Shown: piece after piece, positions 9,309 through 14,775 of the stretch | Numbering within the stretch: position 1 is the first letter of the stretch | Layout of the letters: each line of letters begins with the position of its first letter | Source of the DNA: a virus | Virus record (IMG/VR): IMGVR_UViG_3300009034_000020 | Span: 1 to 64,000 of that record | Length of the DNA stretch: 64,000 bases | Reading direction: 5' to 3' (one strand) | Program-made: the position numbers and the translations under genes | Notes under the pieces: model-generated | Database searches by the model: none | The model's input: the letters and a program-made list of their open reading frames with translations, nothing else | Told to the model about the DNA's origin: nothing

Positions 9309-10553
9309 TTAGTCCCCCTCTTCCTCTTCTATGCTGTACTCGTAAGTCACACCTTCTACCTGGAACCGGCCGCCGAACGGCTGGACCAGGGTCGGGTGCA
9401 CGGCGCCCTCGATGATCTGGCTATAGGCGAAGCCATGCTGCCAGTCAGCAAAGGCATCATAGTCCGGGCTCAACTGACATAGGCAGCCCATCACTGTCCA
9501 GCTCTGGGACTGACCCTTGTCACCTAGCCAGGAGTAGATCTGGTTGCGGTGGAAGTGGCCGCAGAGGCCGCTAGAACGGACCTTCTCGCCCATCCACTTC
9601 GCGCAGTGCTTGATGTTGGCGTTCATGCGGAATGGACCATGCGTCACGATGAACCCAGCGTAGTCGATCCGGCCAGGGAAGGGCATGTGCATGATGCCCC
9701 TCTTCTTGAGACCGAGGATCGAGTCAATCGAGAGCATCGGGTCGCCGTCCTCGTTACGCAGGTTCGTCAACTCAGGACCTCGACTCCAGAGGTAACGCTG
9801 GAGCCGGTGCTCGTGGTTACCATCGACCCAGATCTGCTCAGCGTTAGGGACTGCCTGCCGGTGATAATCCAGCATGTGCCGGGTCCCGGCGAACTCGCTC
9901 TCCAAGTCGAAGAACCGCGTCGGGTTCTTGATGAAGACGGAGATCGTATAGGCGTCCATCTTGTCTCCGCAATAGAAGATCTTGTCAGGCTGGAAGTCGA
10001 TGAGCGCCCGCTGTACAGCCATCCACAATCCCTTCTCTTGGAAGGGGTAGTGAAGGTCAGCGATGTAGAAGGCGCGCTCGCCTTCCCGGACATCAGTCAG
10101 TACTGCTACCAGGGGCTTCTCCTTGATAGCGAACAACCCCTGCTCATAGCGGACCTGGCGCCGGGCGGCATTGTGGGCAGCCTCCGCGCACTGAGGATCG
10201 CAGAAGATGTTGGTGTCGGCCCGCGGCTTGAACTTCTTCCCGCAGTAGGTACACTCCCGTTCGTCCAGCGGGACAGCCCCACGAGCCGCAGCCTGAGCGG
10301 CCTGGCGCTTGCAGAGTATCGAGCAATACTTCTGGTTCGCCGGGCGAATCGCCGCCAGCTTCCGAGAGCAACCGTCTCGGGCACACTTCACGCGCTTCTG
10401 CTTCTGGTGACCAGTCCGACGCTCGTCATTCTCGACCCCACGCCGGCACCTAGCAGAACAGTATGCCTTGTTAGGCAGTGCGTCCGCAGGGAGCTCGTTC
10501 TTACATTCCTTGCGCCTACAGATCCGTGATCTCTTGTGTGAGCTGTCTACCAT
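9309..10553 (-). CDS. metallophosphoesterase with three N-terminal zinc fingers (414 aa)
   Basis: The N-terminal 130 residues hold three treble-clef-like fingers, each with a CxxxC or CxxC knuckle followed about 15 residues later by YC..RC, YC..LC or FC..QC. The rest is a calcineurin-type phosphoesterase with all metal motifs: ADLHYPF (DxH), CGDKMDAY (GDxxD), DGNHEHR (GNHE), THGPF and GHFHR. It likely hydrolyses a phosphodiester or phosphomonoester, with the fingers guiding it to nucleic acid or a partner. The start ATG at 10551-10553 lies five bases after the upstream stop; farther in-frame starts lie inside the SbcC gene. Confidence 0.85.
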   Translation of the reverse strand: MVDSSHKRSRICRRKECKNELPADALPNKAYCSARCRRGVENDERRTGHQKQKRVKCARDGCSRKLAAIRPANQKYCSILCKRQAAQAAARGAVPLDERECTYCGKKFKPRADTNIFCDPQCAEAAHNAARRQVRYEQGLFAIKEKPLVAVLTDVREGERAFYIADLHYPFQEKGLWMAVQRALIDFQPDKIFYCGDKMDAYTISVFIKNPTRFFDLESEFAGTRHMLDYHRQAVPNAEQIWVDGNHEHRLQRYLWSRGPELTNLRNEDGDPMLSIDSILGLKKRGIMHMPFPGRIDYAGFIVTHGPFRMNANIKHCAKWMGEKVRSSGLCGHFHRNQIYSWLGDKGQSQSWTVMGCLCQLSPDYDAFADWQHGFAYSQIIEGAVHPTLVQPFGGRFQVEGVTYEYSIEEEEGD

Positions 10554-10557
10554 GTCG

Positions 10558-11229
10558 TTACTCTCCCTCTCCTGGGCCACGCAGCCTCTTGATAAGAGTC
10601 ACGCCACCCGGCTTCTCAACGAGATACGTAAGGTCCGCTGCATCAGCCATCTCAGGCTCATGGCTAACCAGTGGTGCTACTTGGAGCTCCAGCCGCTTAG
10701 TCATCTCCTGTAAGAGCTGGCATAGGGCGGGCCGGTATTCAGCGCTAACGTGCGAGAACGGCTCATCCAACAGCAGCAGCCGCCGGAGTGGGGGCCGTAC
10801 GCTCAGCGTCAGCAAGATACGCAGCAGGAAGTCCATGACCTCTACCAGGGAGCCCCCATCTGCCTTCAAGGGGTCCTCGATCTTGAGGTCTCCGTCGTAC
10901 AAGATGATCTTGCTGCTGCTCACGCCCCGGACCAGCTTGGTCTCCACCTCAATGCGGAGCGGACGGCCGAACACAGTAGTCAGCCCCTCGCTAACCACGC
11001 CGGCTAGCGACTTCTCGAAGGCGCCGCGCCATTTCTGCTCTAGGCTTTGGAGGATAGCCAGAGCCGCCTTGTGGAGCTCGGCACCAGTTGTCTCACGCAG
11101 GAAGCAGTCGTGGGCCTCCCCTATCTGCTGGTCTAGGAGGTCAGCCTGGCCCCGCCAGCGCTCTAGCTGGGCCTGTGCTGTTCTCAACGTGAAGGCAATG
11201 ACCTTAGTCTTCTGATCCAGCAGTACCAT
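10558..11229 (-). CDS. SbcC/Rad50-like ATPase, C-terminal half (223 aa)
   Basis: This is the second half of an SMC-type recombination ATPase. A coiled-coil start (about residues 1-60) leads to an ABC signature-like segment (ADGGSLVEVMDFLLR), a Walker B (RRLLLLDEP) and an H-loop (PLVSHEPEMA). Walker A is missing here and is found in the separate gene at 12635-13561. Together they would make the T4 gp46/SbcC equivalent that partners the SbcD-like nuclease encoded between them. The ATG at 11227-11229 follows GGAGGAGATTG and overlaps the upstream coiled-coil gene by 26 bases. Confidence 0.88.
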   Translation of the reverse strand: MVLLDQKTKVIAFTLRTAQAQLERWRGQADLLDQQIGEAHDCFLRETTGAELHKAALAILQSLEQKWRGAFEKSLAGVVSEGLTTVFGRPLRIEVETKLVRGVSSSKIILYDGDLKIEDPLKADGGSLVEVMDFLLRILLTLSVRPPLRRLLLLDEPFSHVSAEYRPALCQLLQEMTKRLELQVAPLVSHEPEMADAADLTYLVEKPGGVTLIKRLRGPGEGE

Positions 11230-11470
11230 CAATCTCCTCCAGAACTCCATCCAGGCGCGTGGCGATACCATCCACTACCTCCTCGGCATCCCGCAGCATG
11301 GTATCTGCCTGCTCTTGGAGGTCCTTGTGTATGTCGAAGCCGAGGTCGTTGAGCTCTTCCGTCAAGGCAACAGCAGCCTTGTGGGCCTCGCCTTGCCGGG
11401 CCTGGAGCTGGGCGAAGTCTCGCTCAGCCGCCCGTAGCTTGTCACGTAGGGCTACTAGCTCGGTGTTCAT
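11204..11470 (-). CDS. coiled-coil protein within the split SbcCD locus (88 aa)
   Basis: Almost the entire product is predicted helix with heptad spacing (ELVALRDKLRAAERDFAQLQ and onward) and an acidic C-terminus. The start shares ATGA with the SbcD-like stop, and the 3' end overlaps the SbcC C-half gene. It could supply part of the returning coiled-coil arm of the split ATPase. No other function is apparent. Confidence 0.85.
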   Translation of the reverse strand: MNTELVALRDKLRAAERDFAQLQARQGEAHKAAVALTEELNDLGFDIHKDLQEQADTMLRDAEEVVDGIATRLDGVLEEIDGTAGSED

Positions 11471-12483
11471 AACCCCGCCTCCTCAAGGTAGTGCTTAGCG
11501 AGCTGGGCAGCACTAGACTTGCTATCCCCGAGCTCGGCTAGCACCTCATCTAGCGTCATTTCTTCTGCCTGAAGACCGCCCGCTATCGTCCCGACGAATT
11601 GCTGGATCTCGTCGGAGACGCCTTCCTCGTCCAGCGGGCGGTCTTCAAAGACTTCTCCAGCGGGTAGGACCTTTGACAGTCCATGTCGAGTTAGCTTCAC
11701 ATGAGCCCCGTAGGATGACGCCTCGTCGATCTCGTCGTCCACCTCCAGCAGGAGGACATGGAGACCCCGCGAGAGATTAGATTGGGTACGGGAGATCCTA
11801 GAGATGCTCCCGATGTTGGCGAACAGCTTGTGCGTTGGAGCCTTCTTCGTCTTCCGGATCACGGTGACGCCCAGGTCCTCGTGGATATGGCCGGCCAACA
11901 CTACGTCGATGCCGTCTAGCGGCAACGCAGTGACGTTCACCGAGTCGTACTTCCGTTGAGCACCAGGGGGGAGGATAGGCCCATGCGCCACCAAGATGAC
12001 AGCCGGGCGCACCCTGAACTTGTTGATGATCTCCTCCTCTTCTTCTGCCAGTACGTAGTACTCTGGGTCAGAAGACCGCTCTGCGTCCCACGGGCGCCCT
12101 ATCAACACCGTGTTCTTGAAGACGACGGGGCCAACGAGTGGAGTGATGACCCCAGCCTTAGCTAGTACCCCCAGCGGCTGCTTGCTCAGGCTATCCAAGC
12201 CCTCAGAGCTGAGATCATGGTTGCCGGGGACCACCCAGTGTGGATGCTCGTCCGGCCAAGAGCTGAACAAGTAGATGAGCTGGCCCACTAACCGGTGGCT
12301 GACCCGATTCGGGCGCTTCTGGTGGAAGATGTCGCCAGTGCAGAGGGTAGCATTCGTCCGCCACTGGAACGCCATCTCCCTAATCTCCAGCAGCTTCTCG
12401 TAGATGCTGGTCGTGTAGTCATCGACGCGCCCGAGTGGAGGCTTGTCGGCGATGTGTGGGTCGTTGTAGACCAAGATCCTCAT
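11467..12483 (-). CDS. SbcD/Mre11-like nuclease (338 aa)
   Basis: The phosphoesterase motifs of SbcD/Mre11 (T4 gp47) are in order: YNDPH (residues 6-10), CTGDIFH, VPGNHDL, VAHGPI and AGHIHED. With SbcC it forms the MR-type nuclease that opens DNA ends for recombination. The C-terminal 90 residues are acidic and helical, as expected for the segment that binds the SbcC coiled coil. The start overlaps the stop of the 59-aa Cys-rich gene at ATGA. Confidence 0.92.
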   Translation of the reverse strand: MRILVYNDPHIADKPPLGRVDDYTTSIYEKLLEIREMAFQWRTNATLCTGDIFHQKRPNRVSHRLVGQLIYLFSSWPDEHPHWVVPGNHDLSSEGLDSLSKQPLGVLAKAGVITPLVGPVVFKNTVLIGRPWDAERSSDPEYYVLAEEEEEIINKFRVRPAVILVAHGPILPPGAQRKYDSVNVTALPLDGIDVVLAGHIHEDLGVTVIRKTKKAPTHKLFANIGSISRISRTQSNLSRGLHVLLLEVDDEIDEASSYGAHVKLTRHGLSKVLPAGEVFEDRPLDEEGVSDEIQQFVGTIAGGLQAEEMTLDEVLAELGDSKSSAAQLAKHYLEEAGL

Positions 12484-12659
12484 GGCAAGTACTCCAGTGG
12501 GCTAAGGAAGCGTCGTGCTCCACAGCATGTACACTCAGACCACCCGGTAGGTATCCGCAGGTCCTTCTCTTCGAGGACCCACTCAGCCTCCCATCGGTGC
12601 TGCCCCTTGAGCCAGCACAGTACATGCCCTGCTGCTACTTGAATGGGCAGTGATCGCAT
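12480..12659 (-). CDS. small Cys-motif protein between SbcC N-half and SbcD (59 aa)
   Basis: The ATG at 12657-12659 follows GAGGGGGCTAAGGT and overlaps the last 25 bases of the SbcC N-half gene. The stop overlaps the SbcD-like start (TGA inside ATGA). The product has Trp-rich beta-like segments and ends with ECTCCGARRF, a Cys cluster. Its coupled position and the adjacent zinc hook suggest a hook partner or regulator of the split complex; that is inference. Confidence 0.75.
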   Translation of the reverse strand: MRSLPIQVAAGHVLCWLKGQHRWEAEWVLEEKDLRIPTGWSECTCCGARRFLSPLEYLP

Positions 12660-13561
12660 ACCTTAGCCCCCTCACATGCACGCGCGTAGTCCCTGCGCAG
12701 CTTCTTGATAGCGAATGTAGTATTCGCTACTAACTGGTCCACTGTGTCTGCCTCCACACGTGCGCGCGCGTACCTTATTATAAGGGGTTCGACATTCACC
12801 AAGAGGTCCAGGCGGCGGTTGGTCTCCTCCAGGTCTTGCCCGATGGGATCGAGGTCAACTGACGCTAGCTTCTCCAGCTCGACTTGAGCTGCGGCTATTT
12901 CTTGAACACGTGCCACGATGTCCTGCGCCTTAGTCGCTAGCTCCAGCTCCTCCCCAACCCCATCGAGCTGTTCCTGGAGCTTTTCGAGGGGCGGGAGTGC
13001 ATCCCGCTGTGCCTTCAATTCGCCAAGCAGGGCCTCCTTGGCCGCTGCCTCTCGGCGGTGCTGGTCCCCTACCCGCTTGCACTCCATCTGGGCGACGACC
13101 ACAGTATCCGCCCGAGTGACCTTGCCGAAGATCTTGGCCTGCCGGGACCCGCTCTCGCTCAACACGAAGATAGGGTCAAACTGAGAGGCAAGCTGGGGGG
13201 TAAGTGCGGTGTCCTTGTCTACTTCTAGCTCCCCTATCGCCAACCGTTCCCGGATCTCAGCCGGTACCTCGTGCCCTACCTTGGTGAACATCTTCCCGTC
13301 GAGGCCATAGGTGGCGCTCTTGCCCCGCGGCTTTGTCCAGGTCACACAGCAGTCGTCGAACTCCAGGACGACAGTGCACTCCTTCTCACCCTGGCGTATG
13401 AAGTCATCGCCAGTAGCATTCAAGAGAGCGCACCGAATAGCCCGGACAACAGCGCTCTTGCCGGCCCGGCCAGGGCCAACGAGCACTGTGAGCTGCCCAA
13501 GGTCTAGCTCAGCGTGCTCGATACTCTGGAAGTTGGTGACCCTAACTGCCTTCAGGCTCAC
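12635..13561 (-). CDS. SbcC/Rad50-like ATPase, N-terminal half ending in a zinc-hook CxxC (308 aa)
   Basis: MSLKAVRVTNFQSIEHAELD followed by Walker A GPGRAGKSA (residues 29-37) is the classic Rad50/SbcC/RecF start. A Q-loop region (QLASQFDPIF) follows, then about 150 residues of coiled coil. The protein ends with CDHCPFK: the Rad50 zinc-hook CxxC at residues 302-305 is almost the last thing encoded. The returning arm and Walker B are on other genes (11204-11470 and 10558-11229). The start is GTG after GGGGGACAAAC, 20 bases inside the upstream gene. Confidence 0.9.
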   Translation of the reverse strand: MSLKAVRVTNFQSIEHAELDLGQLTVLVGPGRAGKSAVVRAIRCALLNATGDDFIRQGEKECTVVLEFDDCCVTWTKPRGKSATYGLDGKMFTKVGHEVPAEIRERLAIGELEVDKDTALTPQLASQFDPIFVLSESGSRQAKIFGKVTRADTVVVAQMECKRVGDQHRREAAAKEALLGELKAQRDALPPLEKLQEQLDGVGEELELATKAQDIVARVQEIAAAQVELEKLASVDLDPIGQDLEETNRRLDLLVNVEPLIIRYARARVEADTVDQLVANTTFAIKKLRRDYARACEGAKVCDHCPFK

Positions 13562-13748
13562 GTTTGTCCCCCAGTACGAGGTGGGCCTCGTCCATCACTG
13601 CCAGGAAATCCGCCACCACAACGTTGTCGAACATGATGTCATCGTACTCACGGCAGTAGGTCTCAGCGTCCGCATTGAGGTCCACGAGCGCTCGGAGTAC
13701 CTTCCGCAACGCAGCAGCATCTGCTAGTGCATCATCCTGTTTGCTCAC
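13542..13748 (-). CDS. hypothetical protein (68 aa)
   Basis: Not recognised. It is a small acidic, helical product wedged between recA and the SbcC N-half and overlapping both. It starts at GTG after GGAGAAGACCC. Its placement suggests a link to recombination, with no motif to define a role. Confidence 0.8.
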   Translation of the reverse strand: MSKQDDALADAAALRKVLRALVDLNADAETYCREYDDIMFDNVVVADFLAVMDEAHLVLGDKREPEGS

Positions 13749-14775
13749 GGGTCTTCTCCTTCGGTAGTGGGATCTCCCAGTCAGATGGTGACTTGGCTAT
13801 CAGCTTCTGGAGTTCCTTGTCTGCCTCCAGGATAGGGCCGAAGTCCGCATGGCGGAACTTCCTGCCTTTGTAGTCGTACCATCCCTTGTTCTCCACGATG
13901 ATGCCAGCCTCTACAGCGCAATCGAGGGATGACCCTACCTTGTCGATGCCAGTCTGAAAGTCGATGTCGAATAGGCACTCGCGGTAGGGGTTGTGCACCG
14001 TACTCTTCACGATGTGCGCCTTGACCTTGATACCAGTCGGCCTCTTCGGGTTGGCCCCCAGCCGTTCTACCTCCATCAGGTGGACCTTCAAGCTGGACCA
14101 GTAGTTGAGCGTCTTCTCCCCAAGCATCGTCATCTCGTCCTTCTTCCACCTAGAGAAGTCTACCTTGTGGCGGAGCTGGTTGACGAGTACGAGAGCAATG
14201 CGCTCTCGTGCGATGAGGGGGTGGAGTTTGCGGAGCGCTCGGCTAAGCTCTCGGGCATGTGCTGCTACGTTGGTCTCGCCAAAGTCTGCCTCTACGTCGG
14301 CCTTCGATGGAGAGCCAGCGATAGAGTCGTAGACGATGGTAACCAACCGGTCAGGGAATTGCTTCCGGGCTACCACGATAACGTCCCTGATCTGACGCAG
14401 CACATCTTCTAGTGTCTCGCCTTGGAGCTGCATGAGCAGCTCATCCGTGATGCCCAACCGAACAGCACGGTCCATCCAATAGCGCCGCTCACTATCCGCC
14501 AGCACAGCGATACCTCCGCGCCGTTGTGTCTCGGCCAGGAGGTGGAGGCCAACGGTTGACTTACCGCTGGCCTCCGTGCCAATGAGAGTAGTGAGGCGGC
14601 CTACAGGTATACCAGGGTGGCCGAACATGTAGTCCAGCACTGGGCACTGGGTACTCACGTACTCAGTGACCTTGGAAGCAAGCTGAGCGCCAGCGCCGAC
14701 GATGATCTTGTCGTCCCCAAGGGTCTCTTGGAGCGACTGAAGTTCCTCGACCTGGCGCTTGCGGCTACTCGGCAT
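13732..14775 (-). CDS. RecA/UvsX-type recombinase (347 aa)
   Basis: The RecA core is clear: Walker A GTEASGKST (66-74), the aromatic-linked strand LADSERRYW, Walker B TIVYDS near 145-151 and the L2-side motif VLVNQLR. It polymerises on single-stranded DNA and drives strand exchange in recombination-dependent replication. The ATG at 14773-14775 overlaps the SSB gene by 11 bases, so SSB and recombinase are made together. Confidence 0.95.
   Translation of the reverse strand: MPSSRKRQVEELQSLQETLGDDKIIVGAGAQLASKVTEYVSTQCPVLDYMFGHPGIPVGRLTTLIGTEASGKSTVGLHLLAETQRRGGIAVLADSERRYWMDRAVRLGITDELLMQLQGETLEDVLRQIRDVIVVARKQFPDRLVTIVYDSIAGSPSKADVEADFGETNVAAHARELSRALRKLHPLIARERIALVLVNQLRHKVDFSRWKKDEMTMLGEKTLNYWSSLKVHLMEVERLGANPKRPTGIKVKAHIVKSTVHNPYRECLFDIDFQTGIDKVGSSLDCAVEAGIIVENKGWYDYKGRKFRHADFGPILEADKELQKLIAKSPSDWEIPLPKEKTREQTG

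Follow-up and report, generated by a model that had tools for sequence, protein, structure and literature searches.

SbcC/Rad50 is naturally split just after a hook-like CxxC in phages and Bacillota

The window, a stretch of 64,000 nucleotides, covers most of a 72.8 kb viral record in IMG/VR. Five open reading frames were confirmed on the minus strand at 10558-13561, where an earlier note on this DNA had placed them (Table 1). They encode an N-terminal half of SbcC/Rad50 (N-half), a 59-aa protein, an SbcD-like nuclease, an 88-aa helical protein (cc), and a C-terminal half of SbcC/Rad50 (C-half). The coupling of all five genes by overlaps, described in that note, is real, with overlaps of 25 nt (N-half/59-aa), 4 nt (59-aa/SbcD), 4 nt (SbcD/88-aa), and 26 nt (88-aa/C-half). 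The split genes lie within a recombination/replication block together with a RecA/UvsX-like protein, a single-strand DNA-binding protein, a primase, and a RuvC-like resolvase. SbcD matched Pfam Metallophos (E 1.3e-14); an SbcD/Mre11 partner is thus encoded with SbcC, and in most loci it adjoins or is fused to N, cc, and C. Against the nearest relative (L010), dN/dS was about 0.20 for N, 0.27 for SbcD, 0.40 for the 88-aa gene, and 0.33 for C, values that indicate purifying selection on each of these conserved genes. A DNA-level search of the phage collection with the window gave zero matches. The next downstream gene (9309-10580, minus strand) encodes a second metallophosphoesterase (phrog_221), conserved in L001, whose N-terminus apparently holds three Cys-rich zinc-ribbon repeats.

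Table 1. Features of the split SbcC/Rad50 locus in the window.
Feature	Position	Strand	Remarks
SbcC/Rad50 N-half, 308 aa	12635..13561	-	N-lobe with Walker A, arm, terminal CxxC
Terminal CxxC (CDHC), hook-like, at chain end	12647..12658	-	
59-aa Cys-containing ORF	12480..12659	-	Probable lineage-specific insertion
SbcD/Mre11-like nuclease, 338 aa	11467..12483	-	Calcineurin-like phosphoesterase motifs
cc, predicted 88-aa helical hairpin subunit	11204..11470	-	Homologues in nearly all complete loci
SbcC/Rad50 C-half, 223 aa	10558..11229	-	PHROG 15167, PDB profile, AF2 model and Foldseek
RecA/UvsX-like recombinase, just upstream (context)	13732..14775	-	Pfam RecA E 2.5e-39; PHROG 97 UvsX-like

The N-half showed the Walker A motif GPGRAGKS and the C-terminus ...KVCDHCPFK-stop. 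Its N-lobe spans residues 1 to ~150 and is followed by a helical arm of 151 residues and by the CxxC at 302-305, with 3 residues between this motif and the stop. The earlier description of an N-half with Walker A, one arm, and a stop right at the CxxC was therefore confirmed (CDHC-PFK-stop). The protein matched Pfam AAA_23/AAA_15 and phrog_16465 ('exonuclease', E 3.7e-25). When seven N-halves were combined into a profile, it detected Rad50 N-lobes in the PDB (5f3w_B, E 6e-10). The single-chain AF2 model of the N-half was of low confidence (pLDDT 71, pTM 0.41) and matched Rad50 and SMC heads, with P. furiosus Rad50 as the best Foldseek match. The N-half thus has a Rad50-related N-terminal ABC lobe with Walker A.

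The C-half showed Walker B (LLLLDEP) and the H-loop (VSHE), and matched phrog_15167 ('ATPase', 211 positions) over its full length with an E-value of 1.3e-17. A profile of six C-halves detected the Rad50 C-lobe chains 3qkr_B, 1us8_B, and 1f2t_B in the PDB (E ~1e-9). In the AF2 model, again of the single chain (pLDDT 77), one helix at 2-87, comprising the arm stub and the joint, preceded the C-lobe. The best Foldseek matches were 1ii8_B, 9a9j_B, and 1f2t_B, each the C-terminal chain in a two-chain structure of P. furiosus Rad50. The C-half thus forms a C-terminal lobe that includes Walker B, the D-loop region, and the H-loop, and D155, E156, and H190 were invariant among its homologues. The earlier note had also listed the ABC signature; it is present in degenerate form, as ADGGS instead of SGGE/Q. 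All C-half homologues carry xGG[AGS], in which the serine and the glutamate/glutamine are substituted and the glycines largely kept, and none of this corresponds to the canonical SGGE/Q. As the signature serine is not conserved in the C-halves, ATP cycling may differ from that of canonical Rad50.

Profiles and models of the two halves matched chains A and B, respectively, of P. furiosus Rad50 (1f2t/1f2u/1ii8). On the intact phage SbcC family phrog_77 (967 positions), a Bacillota N-half aligned with positions 298-602 and a C-half with 741-955. The two lobes and the hook are not arranged in one polypeptide with a mid-chain hook, but are encoded by separate ORFs, and N- and C-lobe occur on one chain only in secondary armless fusions.

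IMG/VR was searched with profiles built from closer sequence pairs. In the closest relative (L001/L010), the N-half is 72% identical and the gene order sought in other phages, N-SbcD-cc-C, is the same. Both cysteines of the CxxC were invariant in 17 IMG/VR N-halves, and the chain ended 3-16 residues past the motif in 23 of 24 phage or prophage N-halves, Microbacterium phage Magritte alone being without CxxC; these sets contain near-duplicates (e.g. L019/L021 and L023/L028/L029) and so represent fewer independent lineages. The four-gene set recurs in phages, in Bacilli prophage-type loci, and on Bacillota chromosomes. The three genes concerned in Magritte (gp2, gp155, and gp228) lie far apart, and the C-half of Tunturi_5 lies ~100 kb from its N-half. 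Because the genes of these two phages are tens of kilobases apart, joint expression is an assumption. Matches to phrog_1499 were rejected as additional family members, as the Bacilli ones lack a terminal CxxC and end in TWKAGEF and similar sequences.

The 59-aa Cys protein, which the earlier note had counted among the parts of the system, had to be dropped. L001/L010 lacks it: there the N and SbcD genes overlap each other, and a 101-aa ORF follows SbcD instead. The 59-aa protein also gave zero PHROG or Pfam matches above the cut-off. It is probably a lineage-specific insertion outside the system. Several phages carry a PD-(D/E)XK nuclease and a sliding-clamp-like processivity factor between SbcD, cc, and the C-half (L002, 8164-10667; L007, 14177-16621). 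In Magritte the annotated nuclease gp244 adjoins the cc gene gp245. A PEP-CTERM sorting-signal protein was found inside the recombination cluster of another phage (L008, 7867-8502; Tunturi_5 gp179).

Close copies were found in Brevibacillus, Sutcliffiella, and Paenibacillus genomes; as they cluster with Bacillus phage vB_BboS-125, they are probably prophages. Of 299 genomes from one Bacillota class, 40 carried the C-lobe family, as did 65 of 398 sampled Bacillota genomes (~16%, about one sixth), both counts including the seed genomes. This Bacillota C-lobe is nearly always an open frame of ~210-280 aa. The Bacillota loci (L070-L103) have the order SbcD-N-cc-C and often lie between recA and rny-ymdB, forming a recA-sbcD-N-cc-C-rny operon. 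The N-cc-C order was seen in 32 of 35 distinct Bacillota loci, and the remaining 3 were fusions. In these three genomes (L089-L091), SbcD, N-lobe, and C-lobe form one chain of ~700 aa without arm or hook, which indicates that the parts belong together. The armless chains look like re-fusions, since the C-lobe tree places them within the Bacillota clade of split forms. In one further genome (L077), SbcD and N form one chain of 937 aa, with cc and C separate. Full-length canonical SbcC, defined as an open frame >1,000 aa with a strong TIGR00618 match, was detected in 0 of 30 genomes with the split versus 8 of 20 lacking it (one-sided hypergeometric p ~2e-4, calculated by hand and ignoring the shared ancestry of the genomes).

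Two explanations would remove the need for a split SbcC altogether. An assembly or sequencing artefact in one intact sbcC, against which the earlier note had wanted a safeguard, has a negligible probability and nothing in its favour: the identical break is found in independent IMG/VR contigs, in three cultured phages, and in bacterial genomes, which rules out sequencing error as its cause, and N and C are genomically distant in Magritte and Tunturi_5. The break in SbcC/Rad50, which closely follows the hook-like CxxC, is natural, conserved, and no error. Alternatively, the N-half and the C-half could be unrelated stand-alone proteins that share no ATPase. Their cataloguing as separate PHROGs (16465 and 15167) and their lack of linkage in two phages would suit this explanation, but each protein keeps its own half of an ABC active site, fusions join the N- and C-lobe, and the operon is conserved, so that we consider it very improbable.

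The N-half arm varied from 151 to 322 residues across 17 lineages. Over these lineages cc measured 75-97 residues and the C-half stub 72-82, both near-constant. Spearman coefficients against arm length were −0.08 for cc and −0.04 for the C-half stub. Arms of at least 190 residues showed internal similarity at 44 residues (z 6.7) and 47 residues (z 5.3) against block shuffles. The lineage arm lengths rise in steps of roughly one unit (151, ~200, ~243, and ~290-300). This pattern fits an arm made of a variable number of helical units of ~44-47 residues; unit-built arms of this kind were seen, for example, in L026, L028, and L006. Judged from sequence, the cc protein has a conserved G-x-x-P-like mid turn flanked by two helical stretches, and the copy of phage vB_BboS-125 belongs to PHROG 18563. 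It was absent genome-wide in the three armless fusion genomes and present in 3 of 3 armed controls. Magritte has kept cc although its arm lacks the CxxC; the cc homologue is gp245, and gp1, tried as a candidate, was ruled out.

The earlier note had proposed that the 88-aa protein completes the returning arm. The N-half, cc, and the C-half would then form one antiparallel pair with a zinc hook at the tip, broken only in its covalent continuity. The N-cc-C gene order equals the chain order, the lengths in this window agree (88 + ~60 versus 151), and the N-halves stop near the presumed start of the return helix of E. coli SbcC. These points stand for the window, but they do not extend to the family: cc and the C-half stub stay constant as the arm varies in length, the mid turn of cc is typical of a hairpin, and Magritte has cc without the CxxC. 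The proposal is therefore unlikely. Since cc is lost with the arm, is kept in the armed but CxxC-less Magritte, and does not scale with arm length, it is probably an arm-binding subunit, neither a spliced-out return arm nor tied to the zinc motif. A different geometry concerns the CxxC itself. In E. coli SbcC the hook (CPLCGSTSHPAVEAY) occupies residues 506-509 of 1,048 and is mid chain, and the phage N-halves stop near the start of the following return helix (e.g. CPICGHP-stop). Nearly all Bacillota N-halves extend a further 13-32 residues. Many N-half tails carry an additional His or Cys (CPFCGVEHETSSC, CPLCEQTHKGGGC), for which reason some of them may close a zinc site alone. The N-half AF2 model shows three helices, interrupted at 234-243, and its last helix aligns to the returning arms of Rad50/SMC chains, such as 3qku_A (to 743) and 5dny_B (to 908). 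Such an alignment would place the CxxC nearer the head, by the C-half stub. Of the hook of free chain ends suggested earlier, the position of the CxxC near the chain end holds; this end may lie at the arm tip and bridge two complexes or, as in this alignment, nearer the head. The N-half arm could thus fold back, and the terminal CxxC on the return strand would use zinc to staple the N-half to the C-half or to cc rather than two complexes to each other. The extra His or Cys of the tails agrees with such a staple. However, model confidence is low at the turn, and lineages whose arms differ by one unit would have their chain termini at opposite ends of the bundle; we regard this fold-back as conceivable but somewhat doubtful.

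The gene set is conserved, the halves complement each other in motifs and fold, selection is purifying, and three genomes have SbcD joined to both lobes; on these grounds we are confident that the locus encodes a naturally split SbcCD (Mre11-Rad50) complex made of separate N-half, C-half, SbcD, and cc chains. The N-half and the C-half are predicted to bind non-covalently and to rebuild one ABC-type ATPase head, to which the N-half would contribute Walker A and the C-half Walker B and the H-loop. SbcD would dock at the arm base, and its predicted nuclease activity would cut DNA ends to serve phage recombination driven by RecA/UvsX. The N-half would carry nearly the whole arm, its units varying in number with the lineage, and would end right after the putative zinc-binding CxxC. 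The cc protein would be a constant fourth subunit packed on the arm. The CxxC ends might either join two complexes via zinc or form a local site with the His/Cys of the tails. Beyond this, we put forward tentatively, and with less than even confidence, a widespread Rad50 variant with a non-covalent arm ring. Its hook would be built of free C-terminal CxxC ends, cc would control the opening, exchange, or lengthening of the arm by helical units, and the variant would replace canonical SbcC in many Bacillota.

No description of a split SbcC/Rad50 was found in the open-licence literature, and PHROGs lists the three parts in unconnected families (16465, 18563, and 15167). The split is apparently undescribed. 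By descent and lobes the protein is an SbcC/Rad50, and it departs from the family in the number of chains and in the signature. The Rad50 hook is usually viewed as a stable clasp in one continuous chain. A natural chain break past this clasp, an arm length that changes by units, and a small arm subunit make the need for a covalent arm testable. The analysis also suggests a function for PHROGs 16465, 15167, and 18563 and for the recA-linked operon.

Phage SbcCD in recombination and replication is known from T4 gp46/gp47 and from jumbo phages, where a one-chain SbcC has been described; for SPN3US, separation of the SbcC and SbcD genes is reported, and nothing more (PMC5105663, PMC7824862). SbcD-SbcC fusions include those of Bacillus phage 0305phi8-36 and Anaerostipes, in which, according to PMC3175470, the authors found one SbcC P-loop segment missing; its passages on these fusions report no separate C-lobe. 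These fusions may be the SbcD-N form seen in L077.

The system shares with SbcCD/Mre11-Rad50 (E. coli SbcC, archaeal Rad50) the N-lobe with Walker A, the arm, the hook-like CxxC, the C-lobe with Walker B and H-loop, and the SbcD/Mre11 partner. It differs in that SbcC consists of two or three chains, with the CxxC at a chain end, a degenerate signature, an extra cc subunit, arm units of ~44-47 aa, and a short C-half stub. The closest likeness in chain organisation is the two-chain P. furiosus Rad50 head (1f2t, 1f2u, 1ii8), in which an N-lobe and a C-lobe chain form one ATPase head. This crystal construct is reportedly artificial and lacks the hook as well as most of the arm. The C-half best matches are the C-terminal chains of this head, and the split described here therefore resembles the crystallographers' construct, except that it occurs in nature and its break falls within the arm region.
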